Shown: positions 14,480-27,962, counted from the stretch's first letter. The stretch is DNA of 64,000 bases from Acidaminococcaceae bacterium (GCA_017405945.1 JAFQZL010000013.1:1-64000); one strand, 5' to 3'. Numbers and translations are program-made. Notes: generated by a model not told the origin, from the letters alone.

Positions 14480-15085
14480 ATGGAAGAAACTGTGAATATC
14501 CATGCGTCTGAAAAAGAATGCAATACGACGCCGGCCATGACTCATGTGGAAGCGAATCAGGAGGGTTACCGCTGGGTGGCGATTACGGCCATGCTGTTTG
14601 CCATCGGTATCATTCTGCATACGGTAAGTCCTAATGTGGGGGGCGTTACTCCCAACTGGACCATCGCCATGTATTCCATTGTCATCAACCTGACCCGGCC
14701 GCCTTTGAAACGGGCCATCGGCATTGGCTTTGTGGCCGGCCTGACATTGATTCCATCGTCCAAGTCGGCGTTCCCGCTGGGGAACATTGCAAGTGAACTG
14801 AGCGGGGCGACTACCTGCTGCCTGCTGGTGAAAGCTTTTGTGGCCTGCCATATGGGAGACTGGCGGCTTACCCCCTTTATCACCGGCTTTGCTTCTACCT
14901 TTGTATCCGGCGGCGTGTTCACTTTTATTTTAAAATTAGTGCTGGGCCTGCCGCTGAAGGTATGGATTTTTGCCATGCTGCCGGTTGTGGCGGTAGTCGG
15001 TGTGCTTAACGGCCTGATTACATTCGGTCTGTTCCGTCCTGTGAAGAAACTGTTTTACGCGCAGGAAGGGGGCGAAGATAAATGA
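14480..15085 (+). CDS. ECF transporter S component (substrate-binding membrane protein)
   Basis: A 201-residue protein with about five to six hydrophobic helices after a polar N-terminus. It is the first gene of a four-gene operon with two ATPases and a T component, so it must be the S component that sets specificity. The PLKRAIGIGFVAGL and FPLGNIASEL segments recall TrpP-like S components, which would suggest an amino acid such as tryptophan; this is weak evidence. The stop overlaps the next start (ATGA). GGAGAG precedes the start. I see no clear riboswitch in the 267-base upstream gap. Confidence 0.82.
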   Translation: MEETVNIHASEKECNTTPAMTHVEANQEGYRWVAITAMLFAIGIILHTVSPNVGGVTPNWTIAMYSIVINLTRPPLKRAIGIGFVAGLTLIPSSKSAFPLGNIASELSGATTCCLLVKAFVACHMGDWRLTPFITGFASTFVSGGVFTFILKLVLGLPLKVWIFAMLPVVAVVGVLNGLITFGLFRPVKKLFYAQEGGEDK

Positions 15086-15945
15086 ATTCCATGATTTCCG
15101 TTTCCAACTTTTATTTTAACTATCTCCGCTCTGACCTTGTGCTGAAAAATGTAAATATAGAAATTGAAAAAGGTTCTTTTACTGTCATCATCGGCCCCAG
15201 CGGCGCGGGAAAGACCACGTTGTGCAAAGCCATGACGGGTATCGTTCCTTTTTATTCCGGCGGCGATTATGCCGGTGAAATCAGAGTGCTGGGTGAATCG
15301 ACAAAAGGGAAAAAAGTTTCCGACCTGGCCATGAAGGTGGGACTGATGCTGGAAGATTACGAAAGTCAACTGGTTTCCCTTACAGCTGGGGAAGAAGTAG
15401 CTTTCAGCCTGCTGAATCACGGTTTCCCGCCGGAGGAAGCGGAAGAACGCACCCGCCTGGCGCTGGAAGATGTAGGCCTGCCGGGGCGGGAAAGTTATCA
15501 GCTGGACGAACTGTCAGGCGGACAACGTCAGCGCCTGGCACTGGCATCGCTGTTGGCAGTGCATCCGGAAATCATCGTGCTGGACGAACCGGTCAGCGCC
15601 ATGGATCCCGACGGGGGCGAGAGCCTGTATAAGTTATTGGACAAAATCCACAAAGAACATGGCACCACATTCATTGTAGTGGAACACCGGCTTGAGTTTG
15701 TGCTGCCTTATATGACGGACCTGATTGCCGTGAAAAACGGTGAAATTGCGGCGCAGGGGCATTGTGAGGACGTGGTGCCCCAAATTTATGAAGACGAAGA
15801 ACTGCGGCCGCTGCTGCCGGATCTGTGGCAGGTCAGAAGCAATCTGGAAAAGAAGACCATGCATCAGTTTAAGTTGTGGAGATCTGCCGATGAAGCAGTG
15901 AAAGAATTGCAGTCAAAAGGTTTTGGAAGAGGGGTGAGGGCATGA
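15082..15945 (+). CDS. ECF transporter ATPase (EcfA-type)
   Basis: ABC ATPase of the energy-coupling module. Walker A GPSGAGKTT, signature LSGGQRQR, Walker B IIVLDEP, D-loop SAMD and H-loop VEHR are all intact. It is 287 residues long with the extra C-terminal region typical of ECF ATPases. It overlaps both neighbours by four bases, giving translational coupling with the S gene and the second ATPase. Confidence 0.92.
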   Translation: MNSMISVSNFYFNYLRSDLVLKNVNIEIEKGSFTVIIGPSGAGKTTLCKAMTGIVPFYSGGDYAGEIRVLGESTKGKKVSDLAMKVGLMLEDYESQLVSLTAGEEVAFSLLNHGFPPEEAEERTRLALEDVGLPGRESYQLDELSGGQRQRLALASLLAVHPEIIVLDEPVSAMDPDGGESLYKLLDKIHKEHGTTFIVVEHRLEFVLPYMTDLIAVKNGEIAAQGHCEDVVPQIYEDEELRPLLPDLWQVRSNLEKKTMHQFKLWRSADEAVKELQSKGFGRGVRA

Positions 15946-16748
15946 TTGAAGCAAAAGAGATCAACTTCGCCTATCGCCGCGGCATTCCGGTGCTGTTCGA
16001 TATCAACTGCAAAATCGAAGATGGGGAATTCGTAGCGCTGCTGGGGCACAACGGCAGTGGTAAAACCACCCTGTCCCGCCTGTTTATGGCGTTGGATCAT
16101 CCCCGCAGCGGACAGATTCTTGTGGATGGGGAAGATATTATCAATTATGAACCGGCCGACCTGGCGGATAAAGTCGGATATGTGTTCCAAAATCCGGATT
16201 TGCAGATTCTGGCGGATACGGTATATGAAGAAGTTGCCTACGGTCCCCGGGTCAAGAAGCTGCCGGAAGAAAACATCAAAACAAATGTGAAAGCAGCATT
16301 GCAGGCCATGGGACTGAAAGAACTGGAAGCAAAATATCCCCGTATCCTTTCCTTCGGACAGAAGCGGCGGCTGGGAGTGGCGGCAGCTTTGGCGCTGAAT
16401 CCCCGTATGCTGATCCTGGACGAGATCACTAACGGCCAGGACGCGGCGGAACAGGCGGCTATGATGGAATACCTGAAAGCATTAAATGAAGAAAAAGGAA
16501 CGACCATCATCCTCATCACCCATGATATGAACGTGGTGCGGAAATATGCCAGAAGGGCTATTGTCCTGACAGACGGTCGTCTGGTGTTCAGCGGCACGCC
16601 GGAAGAACTGTTCGAGGGAAATCAGCCGGTGGAACACTGGGGCCTGCGCCGTCCTACTGTTTCCGCACTCGCTTCCCGCCTGGGGGTTTCTGCCGCGTCC
16701 TGTGAAGAATTCTGCGAGGAAATCCGGAAAGGAGGCGCTGCTTTATGA
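15942..16748 (+). CDS. ECF transporter second ATPase (EcfA'-type)
   Basis: The partner ATPase in the asymmetric ECF pair. Walker A GHNGSGKTT and Q-loop VFQNPD are normal. The ABC signature is LSFGQKRR rather than LSGGQ, and Walker B continues LILDEITNGQD where LDEPTxGLD is usual. The second composite ATP site may therefore be weak. It overlaps the flanking genes by ATGA junctions. Confidence 0.9.
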   Translation: MIEAKEINFAYRRGIPVLFDINCKIEDGEFVALLGHNGSGKTTLSRLFMALDHPRSGQILVDGEDIINYEPADLADKVGYVFQNPDLQILADTVYEEVAYGPRVKKLPEENIKTNVKAALQAMGLKELEAKYPRILSFGQKRRLGVAAALALNPRMLILDEITNGQDAAEQAAMMEYLKALNEEKGTTIILITHDMNVVRKYARRAIVLTDGRLVFSGTPEELFEGNQPVEHWGLRRPTVSALASRLGVSAASCEEFCEEIRKGGAAL

Positions 16749-17419
16749 AACTGAACGCCTTTACCTGGATTATCGTAACGCTGGCGGTTACAGCCTGGGT
16801 ATTTATTCTGCCGCTGGAAGCCGTAGCGACGATTCTTGTGTTACAGTTAGTGCTTCTGTTGTATTTCAAACGCAGCAAGACCATGCTGGCGGCTATTGGC
16901 GGGTTAGCTGTGTTTACCGGCATGATGGTCCTCCTGCAGCTGTTATTTGGCTCGCCGCTTGACGTTTCCCTGTTCGGCGGTCTGCGTATGCTGGTCATGA
17001 CCCTTGCCTTTTTGTGCATGCTGGCGACAACGCGTATCCAGAGCATTGCCAAAGCGTTAGTGGACCGATTCCATCTGCCGGTGGAATATGCGTTCATGCT
17101 GACGGCAGCCCTGCGTTTTGTCCCGAACTTTCTGGAGGACAGTTCCATTACCCTGGACGCCCAGTCCTGCCGGGGGTATTCCAACCGGGGCAATGCGCTG
17201 AAACGTCTGTTATCCTACGTGGTGGTGATCCGTCCCCTGGTCATGCGCGCTGTGGCCAAATCGGAAACCCTGGCTCTTTCAATGGAGTTGCGGGGCTTTG
17301 GGGCCAACACATATAAAAATATGCCCAAGGAAGAGCTCACGCTGACTGATTTCGTGGTATTAGTAATTGTTGTGGTATTGAGTACTTATCCGTTCTGGAA
17401 GAAGTTCTTGCCGGTATAA
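16745..17419 (+). CDS. ECF transporter T component (EcfT)
   Basis: Membrane coupling protein of 224 residues with N-terminal and C-terminal hydrophobic helices. The coupling helices that press on the ATPases carry the two Ala-Arg-Gly-type motifs, here AQSCRGY and MELRGFG. It completes an S-A-A'-T operon, so this transporter has a dedicated energy module rather than a shared one. Confidence 0.9.
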   Translation: MKLNAFTWIIVTLAVTAWVFILPLEAVATILVLQLVLLLYFKRSKTMLAAIGGLAVFTGMMVLLQLLFGSPLDVSLFGGLRMLVMTLAFLCMLATTRIQSIAKALVDRFHLPVEYAFMLTAALRFVPNFLEDSSITLDAQSCRGYSNRGNALKRLLSYVVVIRPLVMRAVAKSETLALSMELRGFGANTYKNMPKEELTLTDFVVLVIVVVLSTYPFWKKFLPV

Positions 17420-20704: not shown

Positions 20705-21817
20705 ATGATTATTGACCGCGTAGACATTTACAATGTGCATAACCCGTTTAATCACCCCTTTGAAACCAGTTTTACGAAATTTGTGAACAGGGATGCCCTG
20801 CTGGTAAAGGTCTATTCGGAAGGTCTGGTGGGCTGGGGCGAATGTAAGGCTTTTTATGGTCCTTTCTATAATCCGGAAGATAACGGGACTGTACTGCATG
20901 TATTAAGCAAAATTATTATTCCGCGTCTGCTGCATACGGAAGTGGGCGGACCGGAAGACTTTATGAGTAAATTCAAATTCATTATCGGAAACCGCCTGGC
21001 GAAGGCGGCGATCGAGAATGCGCTCTGGGAGATCCTTTCCCAGCGTACGGGCAAATCGATCAAGACGCTGCTGGGCGGTACGCAAAAAGAAATCAAGGTC
21101 GGTGTTTCCCTGGGGATTGAAAAAGATATCAGTACCCTGTTCAGGATGATTGAAAAGTATCTTAAACAGGGTTATCACCGGACTAAAATAAAAATCCATC
21201 CCGGGCAGGATGTTGAGGTAATCAAAGCGATCCGGAAAGAGTTCGGCGATATCACGTTAACGGTAGATGCCAATTCCGCATATACACTGAAAGATATTGA
21301 CGTGTTCAAAGCGATGGACGAATACGGGCTGCAGTATATCGAACAGCCCCTGGGTGAGGATGATATTGTGGATCATGCTACGCTGCAGGCCGCTATTGAA
21401 ACACCTATCTGTCTGGATGAAAGCATTGTTTCGTACGAATCGGCGGCGGCTGCGATTAAACTGGGCAGTTGCAAGGTCATCAATATCAAATCGAGCCGCT
21501 GCGGAGGTATGTGGGAAGGCAAACGCATCCACGACCTGTGCGTGGAGCATAACATCCCCTTGTGGTGTGGCGGTATGACGGAACTGGGTATCGGCCGGGC
21601 GCAGAACGTTTCCTTTGCCAGCCTCCCTGGCTTTACGGAACTGGCCCACGACGTGGCGGCGGCCAACCGGTATTTTGAAAAGGATATTACCCGTCCCATG
21701 GTGGATATTACGGATCGCTGCACGATCATCGTGCCTGATGAAACCAACGGCGTTAAATACGAAGTAGACGAGGAAGCTATCGACGCTATGTCAGTGGCTC
21801 ACTGGATCTACAAATAA
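20705..21817 (+). CDS. Enolase-superfamily racemase/OSBS-like enzyme, paralogue A
   Basis: A 370-residue member of the o-succinylbenzoate synthase / N-acylamino acid racemase group. The acid-base lysines are in KIK (161, 163) and INIK (262). The Mg2+ ligands are Asp188 in VDANSAY, Glu213 in IEQPL and Asp238 in LDES. No menaquinone gene is nearby, but an M20 hydrolase is. Racemisation or epimerisation of N-acyl (for example N-succinyl) amino acids or dipeptides is therefore more likely than menaquinone synthesis. A second, clearly related copy lies 4 kb downstream in the same orientation. Confidence 0.85.
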   Translation: MIIDRVDIYNVHNPFNHPFETSFTKFVNRDALLVKVYSEGLVGWGECKAFYGPFYNPEDNGTVLHVLSKIIIPRLLHTEVGGPEDFMSKFKFIIGNRLAKAAIENALWEILSQRTGKSIKTLLGGTQKEIKVGVSLGIEKDISTLFRMIEKYLKQGYHRTKIKIHPGQDVEVIKAIRKEFGDITLTVDANSAYTLKDIDVFKAMDEYGLQYIEQPLGEDDIVDHATLQAAIETPICLDESIVSYESAAAAIKLGSCKVINIKSSRCGGMWEGKRIHDLCVEHNIPLWCGGMTELGIGRAQNVSFASLPGFTELAHDVAAANRYFEKDITRPMVDITDRCTIIVPDETNGVKYEVDEEAIDAMSVAHWIYK

Positions 21818-22077
21818 GTATTTACAGATAAACATCAAAACAGCATCAAGTGATAAGAAAAATCGAAAACGGAGAAGTTACAAACGTTTTTTTGAGAAGC
21901 TCACACTCTCGTAAAAATAAATGTGTTTCTGATCGTTTTACCGGTTTTTTATAAAGGGGTTGGTGAAAACCGGCGTTTGAAAAGGAAGGCAGGCGTCCGG
22001 GCTTGTATAAAAAGAACTGTCTGAAACAATTGATTAGTAAGAGAGAGGTATCGGTTAATTAAAAAGGGGGAATTATT
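21818..22077. other. Intergenic region between racemase A and the membrane pair
   Basis: 260 bases without a credible gene. It contains an imperfect hairpin, ACCGGTTTT...AAAACCGG, around 21939-21979. There is no clear terminator or known riboswitch. The downstream GTG gene has its own strong GGGGG ribosome site. It may hold a second promoter. Confidence 0.3.
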
Positions 22078-22785
22078 GTGGATTTAAAACAAGCTATTAA
22101 CAGTCCGGGCCTATGGATTGCTTCATCGCTGATGATCATTGTGATCCTGACCCAGTGTGCCATTTATTTAAGGGCAGCTATTAAAGAAGCTGACAATCTG
22201 GGCATTGCTCCCGAAAGATGGAAAGCGGGCTTCCGTTCTGCCTGCCTGACCTCCATCGGGCCGTCCCTGTCGCCTGTTATTATCATGATGGCGCTGATCG
22301 CCGTATTGGGTACGCCTACCACCTGGATGCGTATGAACGATATCGGCGCAGCCCGTACCGAACTGGCTATGGTTACCCTGGCAGCCGGCGTGGCAGGCGT
22401 GGATCCGCAGAATCCGGCGGCTTTCGGCCTGAAAGGTTTTTCCTACGCTCTGTGGGGCATGGCGCTGAACAATCTGGGCTGGATGTTCTTTACATTGATT
22501 CTGACCCATCGCATGAGTGATGTAGTCGCTAAACTGAATACCAAATATGACCCGGCCTGGATCAAATATCTGACCGCCGGTGCCACCATCGGTCTGTTTG
22601 CGTTCCTGCTGTCACCCCGTCTGGTTATGCCCTTCAAGGCCAGCAACTGGTGTGCGGCGGTAGTTTCTGCGATAGTCATGATGATCGTTTCCAAAGTATT
22701 CGCGAATCAACAGCGCCTGCAGGAATTGGCGCTGGGAATTTCAATGATTGCGGGCATGTATGTGACCGTGGTCATTTTCGGTTAA
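22078..22785 (+). CDS. DUF5058-like multi-pass membrane protein (transporter subunit candidate)
   Basis: A 235-residue hydrophobic protein with about six transmembrane segments. It fits the uncharacterised DUF5058 family in size and in the segment APERWKAGFRSACLTSIGPSLSPVI. The function is unknown. It is followed 18 bases later by a second hydrophobic protein, and both sit between a racemase and an M20 hydrolase, so together they probably import the substrate. The GTG start has GGGGG seven bases upstream. Confidence 0.75.
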   Translation: MDLKQAINSPGLWIASSLMIIVILTQCAIYLRAAIKEADNLGIAPERWKAGFRSACLTSIGPSLSPVIIMMALIAVLGTPTTWMRMNDIGAARTELAMVTLAAGVAGVDPQNPAAFGLKGFSYALWGMALNNLGWMFFTLILTHRMSDVVAKLNTKYDPAWIKYLTAGATIGLFAFLLSPRLVMPFKASNWCAAVVSAIVMMIVSKVFANQQRLQELALGISMIAGMYVTVVIFG

Positions 22786-22803
22786 TGGAAAGGAGTGATC
22801 GGA

Positions 22804-23469
22804 ATGACGAATCCTGAAGCTTACAGACAAAAATGTATTAAAATCGGTCTTGTTTCCGTAACGGCGGCAATCATTGCCAACTTTTGCCCCGCCATTTATT
22901 TCTATATTACCTACGGAGTTATGCCTCCGTTCAGCGACCTGATCAAACTTTGGACAGTTGCAGCCTTTACGTTCGGCGTGTCCTGGTTTATCCAGCCCAC
23001 TACCTTCTTCAGCCTTATGGGTGTCAGCGGCACCTATATCGGCTGGGTTACCGGCAACTGCGCGGATATCCGCTGTCCGGCCATCACCATGGCCCAGAAG
23101 GTAGCCGGCTATGAAGCAGGCACCCCGGAAGGCGACGTTATGGCGACCATGGGTATCACCGCATCTACGTTTACTTCCATCTGCATCATCACGTTCTTTG
23201 CCGTTGCGGGCGGAGAGCTGATCAACCAGCTGCCTCCTTTCATTAAAGCCGGTTTCAAATATATCCTTCCGGCAGTGTTCGGCGCTGTATATACCCAGTT
23301 GTGTACCAAGCACCTGAAGGTAGGTTTCCTGACCATCATCCTGGCTGTTATCCTGACCTATCTGTTCAAGACGGCCAAAGTTCCCAACTGGATCTTGAAT
23401 ATCGCCATCATCCTGGGTGGTGTCCTGATTGCACGTATTGATTTCAAGAGCAAACAGAAGAAAGCCTGA
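22804..23469 (+). CDS. Partner multi-pass membrane protein (transporter subunit candidate)
   Basis: A 221-residue protein with about six hydrophobic segments (about 17-40, 50-75, 115-135, 145-165, 175-190, 195-215). I do not recognise the family. A conserved-looking polar patch, TGNCADIRCPAITMAQ, lies between helices 2 and 3. The start at 22804 has GGAG eight bases upstream; the GTG at 22795 overlaps that site. The tight spacing to the DUF5058-like gene suggests a two-subunit carrier. Confidence 0.75.
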   Translation: MTNPEAYRQKCIKIGLVSVTAAIIANFCPAIYFYITYGVMPPFSDLIKLWTVAAFTFGVSWFIQPTTFFSLMGVSGTYIGWVTGNCADIRCPAITMAQKVAGYEAGTPEGDVMATMGITASTFTSICIITFFAVAGGELINQLPPFIKAGFKYILPAVFGAVYTQLCTKHLKVGFLTIILAVILTYLFKTAKVPNWILNIAIILGGVLIARIDFKSKQKKA

Positions 23470-23585
23470 CGAAAAAGCAAAGTTTTGATCTGGCAATGTA
23501 TGTAAACAGAAGTATCAAAGAAATGCGGAAATGTCCGCAAAACAGAACCGAAAGACAATTTATGACAGAAAGGGGTAAAAACTGT

Positions 23586-24740
23586 ATGGATTTTAAAGAA
23601 AAAGCATTTGCATGGGTTGACGCGAATAAAGACGGTATTGTCGATCTCTGGAGACAGATGGTATCTATTGATTCCGGCATCGGTGTGAAAGAAGGCGGCA
23701 TGGAAATCGGCAACCTGTGCGCCGGCATTCTGGAAGAACTGGGATTTACAATCCGCCGGTACCATTTTGAAAAATGCGGCGATACCATTATCGGCGAACG
23801 CGGCGATCTTTCCAAACCCTATACCCTGTTAATGGGTCATATCGACACGGTATTCTATGAGGGCGAGGTCGCCAAACGGCCCTTCACTATTAAAGACGGC
23901 AAGGCATACGGTCCCGGCGTGCTGGATATGAAAGGCGGCGACTGCATCGCTCTCTCCGCACTGCGCGCCCTGAAAGATGCCGGCTATGATTTCCCCTGCA
24001 AGGTGATTTTTGTAGCGGACGAAGAACCGGCCCACATTTTTTCCAACAATCCGGAAGTTATCATGAAAGAAGCAAAAGGCGCCAAGTATTGCTTCAACTT
24101 TGAAACCGGTTTTCCCGACCATGACATTACCGTACAGCGCAAAGGATGCTGGCGCTTCTTCGTGGAAACCTTCGGACGCGGCTGCCATGTTGGCAACGAT
24201 CCGGAAAACGGTCGCAGCGCGATCCTGGAAATGGCCCATAAGATCATCGAGATCGAGAAACTGACCGACTTCTCCAAAAACTACAATATCAACGTAGGCA
24301 CCATCGAAGGCGGTACGGTAGCCAATGCGGCGCCTGCACACTGCAAAGTGGAATGCGATTTCCGTTATATCAACGAAGCCGATTTGGTTGAAATGCGTGA
24401 AAAGGTAAAGAAGATCGTAGAAACCGTTTACGTAAAAGACGTAACCACCACCATGTCCGAGAGTTGCGGCTTTGCAGCCATGGAACGGCTGCCCGGCAAC
24501 ATGGAATTGCTGAAGGTTGCCCAGGAAGTGGCGCGGGAAAACGGCTGGCCGATTCCCGGACCGAAACTGTGCGGCGGCGCTTCCGACGCGGCCTATACCT
24601 GCAAAGTTGGTGTACCGTCCCTGTGCTCCATCGGCGTAGAAGGCCGCCGGAACCATACAGTGGAAGAATGGGCGGATGTTGACAGCATGTTCGCAAGAAC
24701 CAAATTGATTGCTGCATTAATTTTGAAACTGACAAAATAA
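23586..24740 (+). CDS. M20-family metallopeptidase/amidohydrolase (ArgE/DapE/CPG2-like)
   Basis: Zinc hydrolase that cleaves N-acyl amino acids or small peptides. Metal-site motifs are intact: MGHIDTVF (His and Asp), GPGVLDMKGG (bridging Asp), ADEEP (catalytic Glu) and the final RNHTVEEW His. A dimerisation domain sits in the middle (about 185-290). It has 384 residues. The start at 23586 has AAGGGG about ten bases upstream; the ORF before it, including the ATG at 23562, lacks one. Its place between the membrane pair and racemase B suggests it deacylates the racemase product or substrate. Confidence 0.88.
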   Translation: MDFKEKAFAWVDANKDGIVDLWRQMVSIDSGIGVKEGGMEIGNLCAGILEELGFTIRRYHFEKCGDTIIGERGDLSKPYTLLMGHIDTVFYEGEVAKRPFTIKDGKAYGPGVLDMKGGDCIALSALRALKDAGYDFPCKVIFVADEEPAHIFSNNPEVIMKEAKGAKYCFNFETGFPDHDITVQRKGCWRFFVETFGRGCHVGNDPENGRSAILEMAHKIIEIEKLTDFSKNYNINVGTIEGGTVANAAPAHCKVECDFRYINEADLVEMREKVKKIVETVYVKDVTTTMSESCGFAAMERLPGNMELLKVAQEVARENGWPIPGPKLCGGASDAAYTCKVGVPSLCSIGVEGRRNHTVEEWADVDSMFARTKLIAALILKLTK

Positions 24741-24765
24741 GTCTGGAAAATGAGGGAGAAACACT

Positions 24766-25902
24766 ATGAAAATTAAAAAAGTCGTCCTCCGTGAACTGGA
24801 ATTAAAACATAAGGTTGGCTTCCGTACCAGTTTTGGCGTAAGCACGGTTAAAAATTTCTCCGTAATTGAAGTACATGATTCCGACGGCAACGTCGGCTAT
24901 GGCGAATGCTCGCCTTTCTTCCGTCCCTGGTACAATGAAGAAACCACCGGCGGCGCTATTATTATTCTGAAAAACTTCCTGATTCCCGAATTATTTAATT
25001 TCGGAGAATTTAAAACTCCGGAAGATTTCTGGTTCCATACGGGCTGGATCCGCCGGAACCGGATGGCCCGTTCCGCCGTGGACTGCGCCCTGTGGGAACT
25101 GTATTCCAAACAGCAGGGCCTGCCTGAATGGAAAGCCCTGGGCGGCGTAAAGACGGAAGTAGAAGCCGGCATTTCCCTGGGCATTGAAAAGACACCGGAC
25201 GATCTGTGCCGCAAGGTAGAAGAATCCCTGAAAAAAGGATATCACCGGGTAAAATGCAAAATCGGGCCCGGCCATGATATCCAGTATCTGTCTGCCGTAC
25301 GCAAACAGTTTGGCGATATCATGCTGATGGCTGACGCCAACTCCGCGTACACGCTGGACGATATTCCGGTATTCAAGGAAATCGATGACCTGCACCTGCT
25401 GATGATTGAGCAGCCGCTGGCAGATAACGATATCGTTGACCACCGCCACCTGCAGGCAGCCATCAAAACCCCGATCTGCCTGGACGAAAGCATCGACTCC
25501 TTGGAAGACGCCCGCCGTGCCATTGAGCTTGGCAGCTGCCGCATCATCAATATCAAAGTCGCCCGGGTCGGCGGCCTGACGGAAGCGCGCCGGATCCAGA
25601 AATATGCCGGTGAGCGTAATGTGTTCTCCTGGAGTGGCGGCATGCTGGACGCCGGGATTGCCCGTATGCACAATATCGCCGTGGCAACGCTGCCGTATTA
25701 TGTATATCCCAATGACATCCCCAACAGCGACCGTTACTATGCGGAAGATATCGTATCGCCTTCCACGTTCGTGGACGAAAACGGCAAGATTCAGGTTCCG
25801 CAGGAAGTGGGAACCGGCTTCAAACCTAACATGGAAGTGATTGAAAAGGCCACCGTTAACAAGTGGGAATTTGACGGGGCTCCGCAAGTAGAAGAAAAGT
25901 AA
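24766..25902 (+). CDS. Enolase-superfamily racemase/OSBS-like enzyme, paralogue B
   Basis: A 378-residue homologue of the enzyme at 20705, with the same active-site set: KCK (Lys163, Lys165), Asp190 in ADANSAY, Glu215 in IEQPL, Asp240 in LDES and Lys264 in INIK. The residues that cap the barrel, such as the 15-25 loop and WSGGMLDAG against WCGGMTELG, differ from paralogue A. The two may therefore prefer different substrates. It lies 25 bases after the M20 gene with GGGAG before the start. Confidence 0.86.
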   Translation: MKIKKVVLRELELKHKVGFRTSFGVSTVKNFSVIEVHDSDGNVGYGECSPFFRPWYNEETTGGAIIILKNFLIPELFNFGEFKTPEDFWFHTGWIRRNRMARSAVDCALWELYSKQQGLPEWKALGGVKTEVEAGISLGIEKTPDDLCRKVEESLKKGYHRVKCKIGPGHDIQYLSAVRKQFGDIMLMADANSAYTLDDIPVFKEIDDLHLLMIEQPLADNDIVDHRHLQAAIKTPICLDESIDSLEDARRAIELGSCRIINIKVARVGGLTEARRIQKYAGERNVFSWSGGMLDAGIARMHNIAVATLPYYVYPNDIPNSDRYYAEDIVSPSTFVDENGKIQVPQEVGTGFKPNMEVIEKATVNKWEFDGAPQVEEK

Positions 25903-25917
25903 TATAAAAAAGTCTGT

Positions 25918-25965
25918 AACGGGTTCCCGGATCGTTTTGCTGCGGTTCAGGAGCCCGTTCTTTTT
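25918..25965 (+). terminator. Terminator ending the racemase/M20 cluster
   Basis: AACGGGTTCC pairs with GGAGCCCGTT (one G-U), followed by CTTTTT. It separates the cluster from the riboswitch-controlled symporter. Confidence 0.82.
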
Positions 25966-26012
25966 GTGAAACGGAAAACAGATGAAAATCTTTGGACACT
26001 TGTGCTTCCCGG

Positions 26013-26030: not shown

Positions 26031-26104
26031 TTGCAGCACCTCTTGATTTTTTGAAGTAAATTGTTTAAAATCGTCTTATATAAAAAATGAAAATTGAGTG
26101 GATG

Positions 26105-26300
26105 AAACATGCGGAAGAATGCAGGGCCAAAAGGTCAGGCATGCCGAAGGAGTAGCACTCTCAGGCGTTCCGGTGAACACGAAACCGCATGCGGACACAA
26201 CTCTGGAGATACTCATTCAATTGAGAGCCGAAGGTGCAAGGGCGCAGCCCCAATCTCTCAGGCAAAAGGACAGGGTCGGGAACAGGCGGTAATTCCGCTT
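26105..26300 (+). promoter_or_regulatory. Tandem glycine riboswitch (two aptamers)
   Basis: Two glycine aptamers in a row. The conserved core GCCGAAGG appears at 26143-26150 and 26227-26234. The matching CTCTCAGGC appears at 26158-26166 and 26255-26263; the second continues as the hallmark AAAAGGACAG. The first aptamer is the more compact. An intrinsic terminator follows at 26344, before a Na+:alanine/glycine symporter. Glycine thus probably tunes transcription of its own carrier. The sign of control cannot be read with certainty. Confidence 0.9.
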
Positions 26301-26384: not shown

Positions 26385-26537
26385 TTACGGTTTCAGTATC
26401 AGGAGGTCCAAATGGGGGAATTCAGGATCCGGGGTGATACAGGATAATACAGCAGTAACCCCGAGGTAGGCGCTACGCCAGATCTGGCAGTGACCGGTAT
26501 GAGGTCCGGTAATTATAAAAAGGAAGAAGGAATTTTT

Positions 26538-27962
26538 ATGGATTGGAAAGCTATTAATGCAACTGTAGACGCAATAGACAGTTTTGTTTGGGGTCCGGCG
26601 ATGCTGGTCCTGCTGGTAGGTACCGGCATATACCTGACTTTTAAGCTGAATTTCCGTACCTGGAGGAACCTGCCCTACGCCCTGAAGAGCGTGCTGGGCA
26701 AAGATGCCCGCACCACGAAACGCGGGCACGGCGATGTTTCCCCGTTTTCAACCCTGATGACGGCGCTGGCCGCTACCATCGGTACCGGCAACATCGTCGG
26801 CGTGGCTACGGCCATGTTCTCCGGCGGCCCCGGCGCTCTGGTCTGGATGTGGATCTCCGCCTGCTTCGGTCTCACCAGCAAGTTCGCAGAATGTATGCTG
26901 GCGGTTAAATACCGTGAAGTAAACTCCAAAGGTGAAATGGCCGGCGGCCCTATGTTTACCATGAAGAATGCCCTGAAAAATAAATCCCTGGGTAAAACTC
27001 TCGGTTTCCTGTTTGCCCTGTTCACAGTGCTGGCCTCCTTCGGTATCGGCAATCTGACCCAGGCGAACTCCATTTCTTCTGCCCTGGAGCAGACTTTTGA
27101 AATTCCTATTGCGGTAACCGGTGTCGGCCTGACAATTCTGTCTCTGATTATTATCTTAGGCGGCATCCAGACCATTGCCAAGGTTTCTTCCGTGCTGGTT
27201 CCTTCTATGGCAGTTCTGTATGTAATTGCCGGTCTGGCCGGTATTTTGGGTAATCTCAGCGCCATTCCCCACGGTCTGTACCAGATTTTTGTTATGGCCT
27301 TCAGTCCGGATGCTGTAGGCGGTGGCGTACTGGGCACGATTACCGTCAGCGTTATGAATGCGGTCCGCTTCGGCGTAGCGCGCGGCTGCTTCTCCAACGA
27401 AGCCGGCATGGGCTCCGCAGCTATTACTGCAGCGGCGGCTCATACAGACGATCCTGTCCGCCAGGGTTACATCAATATGACCGGTACGTTCTTTGACACC
27501 ATTGTTGTCTGCTCCATCACCGGTCTGGTCATCGCTTCCTCCGGCGTATTGGGCGCCACGGCTGCCGATGGCACCCCGCTGAAAGGTATCGCCCTTACCA
27601 TCGCCGCATTTGAACGGTTCGTAGGCCCTGCAGGCGCATATATCGTTTCCATCGGCATCCTGCTGTTTGCGTACTCCACGATTCTCGGTTGGGAATATCA
27701 CGGTGAGAAAGCATTCGAATATCTGGTAGGCGATCATAAATTAAACATCATCTACCGCGTGCTGTTCTCCCTGACCGCTTATATAGGCGCAACCCAGACC
27801 CTGGAGCTGGTGTGGAACCTGGCCGACATTTTCAACGCCCTGATGGCGATCCCCAACTTAATCTGTATGATTATGCTGGCTGACGTTCTGAAGTCCGAAG
27901 CGGAACGGTTCCAACCGATCCTGGAAGCGGAAGAAGCAGCTAAGGCTGCTGCGGAAGACTGA
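26538..27962 (+). CDS. Sodium:alanine/glycine symporter (AGCS family)
   Basis: A 474-residue, roughly 11-helix carrier that imports alanine or glycine with Na+. Family landmarks are TALAATIGTGNIVGVATAMFSGGPGALVWMW in the first half (only part is needed to see it), the SNEAGMGSAAI segment, and GWEYHGEKAFEYL near the end. The start at 26538 has AAGGA before it; the earlier ATGs at 26490 and 26499 are not preceded by one. Codon choice is strongly biased (CTG, GGC, ATC), which hints at high expression. The glycine riboswitch upstream supports glycine as a substrate. Confidence 0.94.
   Translation: MDWKAINATVDAIDSFVWGPAMLVLLVGTGIYLTFKLNFRTWRNLPYALKSVLGKDARTTKRGHGDVSPFSTLMTALAATIGTGNIVGVATAMFSGGPGALVWMWISACFGLTSKFAECMLAVKYREVNSKGEMAGGPMFTMKNALKNKSLGKTLGFLFALFTVLASFGIGNLTQANSISSALEQTFEIPIAVTGVGLTILSLIIILGGIQTIAKVSSVLVPSMAVLYVIAGLAGILGNLSAIPHGLYQIFVMAFSPDAVGGGVLGTITVSVMNAVRFGVARGCFSNEAGMGSAAITAAAAHTDDPVRQGYINMTGTFFDTIVVCSITGLVIASSGVLGATAADGTPLKGIALTIAAFERFVGPAGAYIVSIGILLFAYSTILGWEYHGEKAFEYLVGDHKLNIIYRVLFSLTAYIGATQTLELVWNLADIFNALMAIPNLICMIMLADVLKSEAERFQPILEAEEAAKAAAED

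Follow-up and report, generated by a model that had tools for sequence, protein, structure and literature searches.

A Negativicutes gene cluster with two NSAR/OSBS-subfamily enzymes, a DUF5058 membrane pair and an M20 hydrolase: a candidate route for scavenging N-acylated amino acids

Gene cluster and transcription unit layout

The window, the whole stretch of 64,000 nucleotides analysed here, belongs to a Succiniclasticum-like Acidaminococcaceae genome (G000) of 2.46 Mb that is 99% complete. Its nearest named relatives are ruminant Acidaminococcaceae and Succiniclasticum MAGs, in which the DUF5058 protein is 94-100% identical. A cluster of five intact genes occupies positions 20705-25902 of the plus strand in the order RacA, DUF5058 protein, partner membrane protein, M20 hydrolase and RacB. 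All five genes were located, in agreement with a preliminary description of this DNA that had reported consecutive genes on one strand with a DUF5058-type membrane pair. The glycine riboswitch and Ala/Gly symporter that it had placed downstream were likewise found. The features and the evidence for each are as follows.

20705..21817, +, RacA, enolase-superfamily protein of the NSAR/OSBS subfamily, predicted N-acylamino acid racemase, 370 aa (TIGR01928, PDB relatives, catalytic residues, clade)
22078..22785, +, DUF5058 membrane protein, predicted transporter subunit a, 235 aa (PF16481, hydrophobic segments, context)
22795..23469, +, partner membrane protein, predicted transporter subunit b, 224 aa (adjacency to DUF5058, alignment)
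23586..24740, +, M20 metallohydrolase, carboxypeptidase-G2-like, predicted N-acyl-amino-acid amidohydrolase, 384 aa (PF01546/PF07687, 1cg2, Zn ligands)
24766..25902, +, RacB, second NSAR/OSBS-subfamily protein, 378 aa (TIGR01928, separate clade)
25918..25966, +, intrinsic terminator closing the cluster (folding, z -4.45)
26193..26283, +, glycine riboswitch aptamer, neighbouring unit (RF00504, 66.2 bits)
26535..27962, +, AgcS Na+:alanine/glycine symporter, neighbouring unit (PF01235, 434 bits)

The strong terminator 3' of RacB was found by folding and consists of a 10-pair stem with an inner stem, followed by CUUUUU; promoter and terminator scans of the region performed near chance level. The 260-base gap between RacA and the DUF5058 gene has ordinary RNA structure (z -0.40) and holds no convincing terminator. 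The five genes may form a single transcript. Downstream, the terminator intervenes, and among relatives only L005 and L006, the nearest two whose flanks are long enough, keep the riboswitch and AgcS next to the cluster. We therefore set these two features aside as cluster members; they probably form a separate transcription unit. Just upstream of the glycine aptamer, positions 26100-26190 resemble by eye a degenerate first aptamer, but Rfam gives only one aptamer. Upstream of the cluster, 14480-17419 looks by eye like an ECF-type transporter cluster with a membrane protein, two ATPases and an EcfT-like protein.

RacA and RacB belong to two separate clades

RacA and RacB are about 45% identical to each other and are the only members of the N-acylamino acid racemase/o-succinylbenzoate synthase (NSAR/OSBS) family found in the host genome. 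Both exceed the cutoff of the menC model TIGR01928 (336.6 and 309.6 bits; cutoff 200.65), and automatic annotation will therefore call both of them o-succinylbenzoate synthases. The best PDB relatives of RacA include 2zc8 and 1sja, which are N-acylamino acid racemases; 2zc8 scores 288 bits to RacA and 285 to RacB, against 112 bits at most for dipeptide epimerases in the PDB comparison.

The active sites are intact, as described previously. The catalytic residues of RacA, K161 and K163 of the K-x-K motif, the metal ligands D188, E213 and D238 and the second lysine K262, are identical in RacB and across the rest of a 70-row alignment. R266, a determinant of racemase activity that helps specificity, proved uninformative as a marker of NSAR function: it is invariant, being present in RacA, RacB and every menaquinone-context row, so that OSBS and NSAR cannot be told apart by residues.

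The tree of the 70 rows separates 21 RacA orthologues from 19 RacB orthologues, each group with 100/100 support, and the menaquinone-context proteins fall outside both. The two clades were seen only in non-menaquinone loci; the tree label 'TRANS' was assigned per locus and takes in L151, L152 and L154, which have no transporter nearby. The pair therefore did not arise by a recent tandem duplication. On this tree, RacA and RacB represent two ancient, separate clades that have been kept together in many Negativicutes, and we predict that both are N-acylamino acid racemases.

The M20 hydrolase resembles carboxypeptidase G2

The M20 protein matches PF01546/PF07687, and its start at 23586 is supported by relatives, with a longer start possible at 23496. 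Its best PDB relative is carboxypeptidase G2 (1cg2; 156 bits, 30% identity). The two-Zn site (H112, D141, E176, E200 and H385) and the base E175 are all present, in line with the earlier view of an intact hydrolase, and are kept in 31 homologue rows, one of them remote, with the exception of one E200D substitution.

Carboxypeptidase G2 cleaves N-acyl-glutamates. Of its residues, H229, N275 and R288 are retained in the window protein, whereas K208 and R324 are replaced by D and F. The hydrolase therefore probably still recognises a free carboxylate, and glutamate specificity is not to be expected. We predict that it is an N-acyl-amino-acid amidohydrolase.

The DUF5058 pair and its neighbourhoods

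The DUF5058 protein matches PF16481 over the full length of the profile (positions 1-222 of 222; 172 bits, cutoff 28.2) and has about six hydrophobic segments. Its partner has no match in Pfam or NCBIfam. A profile comparison of the two subunits with each other found no homology, and no relative of the pair was found in the PDB. AlphaFold models of the two proteins, built from shallow alignments, were unusable (pLDDT 48 and 45). Comparison with the Gate pair YjiG/YjiH (PF07670) gave hhalign probabilities of 0.1-0.3% in all four subunit pairings and likewise found no homology. Our literature search retrieved no paper on DUF5058.

DUF5058 occurs in 23/300 genomes of the class sample and 33/398 of the phylum sample, as well as on plasmids of haloarchaea and of Paracoccus, Vibrio and Arthrobacter relatives. 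Of 53 loci, 51 have the partner gene next to it. An amide or peptide hydrolase (M20A/other, M20D, Amidohydro_3, Amidohydro_1, amidase, M24, M28, M42 or AAT/C45-type) lies within four genes in 37/53 loci, from archaea to Paracoccus; a CaiB-type CoA-transferase is found instead in 9/53, and neither in 7/53. Genes for M20 proteins or D-acylases account for 41/298 genes at a distance of 1-3 from DUF5058 and for 2/248 at a distance of 5-8. These 53 loci were selected by DUF5058 itself, and kinship keeps them from being independent.

The host genome has a second DUF5058 pair on contig C38 (L003:4974-7665), which is followed by a CaiB-type CoA-transferase gene and lies beside what we take, from reading the sequence, to be a LytS/LytTR-like regulator pair. 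The family is thus not confined to N-acyl amino acids. The arrangement with a CoA-transferase recurs in Acidaminococcaceae (L080, L083 and L086-L091).

The cluster is conserved across rearrangements

Conserved co-occurrence in other genomes, on which the preliminary description had made its reading depend, was found in a sample of 300 genomes of the class. A RacA orthologue, defined by 65% identity or more, is present in 22 of them; DUF5058 accompanies it in 14/22, compared with 9/278 of the others (Fisher p 5e-13, computed without kinship correction). In 11 of the 14 genomes that have both, RacA and DUF5058 lie in one cluster. The gene orders include RacA-DUF-DUF-M20-RacB, M20-RacA-DUF-DUF, RacB-RacA-M20-acylase-DUF-DUF and RacB-DUF-DUF-RacA, and because they differ between genomes, functional linkage is favoured over inherited synteny.

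The NSAR/OSBS loci sampled in the phylum are of three kinds: menaquinone operons with MenB/MenD; loci with a GNAT protein, which makes the substrate within the cell, and a racemase, mostly together with M20D; and loci, including the one in the window, that have a carboxypeptidase-G2-like M20A hydrolase and a transporter and no GNAT. The GNAT profile matches 13 racemase loci of the second kind and none of the third. The DUF5058 pair fills the transporter slot of the third kind in 10 retrieved loci besides the window. Eight more carry an MFS protein, a YjiG/YjiH-like Gate pair or both, and two an NlpA lipoprotein. These alternatives adjoin the same racemases and M20A. That MFS, Gate and NlpA proteins replace the DUF5058 pair at the same place is our main reason for predicting that the pair transports the substrate of the neighbouring enzymes. 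The RacA loci L151 and L152 have neither M20 nor a transporter nearby. Literature searches returned no description of a racemase-DUF5058-M20 cluster of this type.

A proposed route and its alternatives

We consider it probable, with appreciable room for doubt, that the cluster encodes an import, racemisation and hydrolysis route that scavenges exogenous N-acylated amino acids. The DUF5058 pair would take up an anionic N-acyl compound, such as an N-succinyl or other short-acyl amino acid or possibly a dipeptide. RacA and RacB would follow the two-lysine mechanism (PMC8142540), in which a 1,1-proton transfer at the metal-bound carboxylate turns D into L forms and back. The M20 hydrolase would then split the amide of one enantiomer, expected to be L, into the free amino acid and the acyl acid, and its action would pull racemisation to completion as in NSAR/acylase cascades. 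The preliminary description had read the cluster as a complete pathway of import, inversion and release. Comparative context supports that order of events better than the other readings. Completeness and substrate class, the occurrence and direction of transport, the identity of the acyl group and of the amino acids, and how RacA and RacB share the work are parts that we infer. More tentatively, DUF5058 and its partner may constitute a new bacterial and archaeal family of two-subunit N-acyl-amino-acid or amide transporters, and the cluster an undescribed Negativicutes route for N-acyl-D/L-amino acids that needs two diverged racemases together, either for different substrates or as a mixed oligomer.

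The same two enzyme activities would also serve an intracellular D- to L-amino acid conversion of the Geobacillus type, in which a distantly encoded succinyltransferase caps the amino acid, RacA and RacB invert it and the M20 hydrolase removes the cap, the membrane pair importing, for example, D-amino acids. Loci that combine a GNAT with a racemase, mostly with M20D, are indeed visible among those sampled. However, a relative of this GNAT was found neither in the RacA/DUF5058 loci nor in the host genome, where the search had no internal positive control, and the window hydrolase is M20A rather than M20D; we regard this explanation as unlikely. Rather unlikely, too, is a cluster that takes up D/L dipeptides, for instance murein-derived ones, with RacA and RacB as dipeptide epimerases and the M20 protein as a dipeptidase. 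Dipeptide epimerases belong to the same superfamily, several DUF5058 pairs stand beside M24, M28 and M42 peptidases, and Gate pairs replace the DUF5058 pair, but sequence puts RacA and RacB inside the NSAR/OSBS subfamily and a long way from dipeptide epimerases, and the closest solved M20 relative acts on N-acyl-glutamates.

A further alternative concerns only the membrane pair, which might export or carry another organic anion, such as released succinate, while the substrate enters by a different system. The pairs found with a CaiB-type CoA-transferase in Acidaminococcaceae suggest small carboxylates as cargo; against this, sibling clusters fill the slot with MFS, NlpA or Gate proteins, and such MFS and NlpA proteins usually work as importers. 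We give this possibility little weight. Least of all do we expect RacA or RacB to be a true o-succinylbenzoate synthase of menaquinone synthesis in a chance grouping of genes, although both pass the menC cutoff. No menaquinone genes lie near the cluster, as had been stated before, and in the whole 99% complete genome the best matches to MenB (110 bits, cutoff 342.7) and MenD (63.5 bits, cutoff 244.2) fall far below the model cutoffs. The position of menaquinone-context proteins outside both clades and a gene linkage that survives rearrangement also speak against this very improbable reading. Because neither MenB nor MenD reaches its cutoff in the genome, 'o-succinylbenzoate synthase' is very probably an incorrect automatic annotation of both proteins.

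Relation to known systems

The scavenging route that we favour resembles a pathway that Sakai et al. reportedly described in 2006 in Geobacillus kaustophilus, where GNAT, NSAR and M20 proteins are said to convert D- to L-amino acids irreversibly. Both combine an NSAR-subfamily racemase with a cap-removing M20 hydrolase. In contrast, the window has a transporter instead of a linked GNAT, two racemases from two clades, and an M20A (carboxypeptidase-G2-like) hydrolase where the GNAT-type loci sampled here have M20D. Coupling of an NSAR to a stereospecific acylase is also an established biotechnological cascade (PMC7431475), in which racemase and hydrolase together achieve dynamic kinetic resolution of N-substituted amino acids; unlike the cluster, it is a man-made combination and has no transporter. 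The catabolism of D-amino acids through DgcA, an N-acetyl-D-glutamate racemase (NF042940), shares enolase-superfamily racemisation of N-acyl-D-amino acids, and a PRK09061-like D-acylase gene is present in some related clusters. RacA and RacB nevertheless score far below the DgcA cutoff of 400 (91 and 116 bits), and the window has no D-acylase.

These comparisons give a widespread membrane pair a predicted transport function as a lead, set a third class of NSAR/OSBS loci apart from the menaquinone and GNAT types, and correct a likely misannotation. If the proposed route is true, Negativicutes of the rumen and gut are able to use capped amino acids and D-amino acids as food. The host belongs to a group known for living on succinate, so an N-succinyl cap would itself be fuel.

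Additional genes in related clusters

Clusters of relatives hold further genes of D-amino acid metabolism: a PRK09061-like D-acylase in eight loci, below the cutoff of that model; a D-serine ammonia-lyase (669-679 bits in L077, with a relative in L008); a D-amino-acid transaminase-like gene (232 bits, cutoff 277); an alanine racemase (379 bits, L084); and a D-threonine-aldolase-like gene. Their presence is consistent with a diet that includes N-acyl-D-amino acids. None of them occurs in the window cluster, and no close D-acylase was found in the host genome; the window cluster may therefore handle a narrower set of substrates.

A CutC-like glycyl radical enzyme is encoded beside racemase or M20 genes in Negativicutes at L155:5330-7696, L156:12420-14789, L008:18446-20671, L009:8893-10548 and L085:15360-17720. 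Its scores, 683-743 bits against a CutC cutoff of 1050, reach the cutoff of none of the named types tested, and most of the five loci also contain a gene for a radical SAM activase. An uncharacterised downstream step is a possible role. Many racemase/DUF5058 clusters, the window not among them, adjoin a divergently transcribed gene for a 440-aa protein (L076:2000-3322 and homologues) with weak GGDEF_GdpP-like and HTH signals only, which is probably an undescribed family of regulators.

On the haloarchaeal plasmids L112, L116 and L200, the DUF5058 pair and an M20 amidohydrolase lie beside glycine cleavage or related genes. A TRIC-type membrane protein is encoded in L116 and L200, and a PF03458 gene adjoins the pair in L009. 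In L046/L095 (G320:C1:837013-837657), the DUF5058 gene is broken by a TGA codon.
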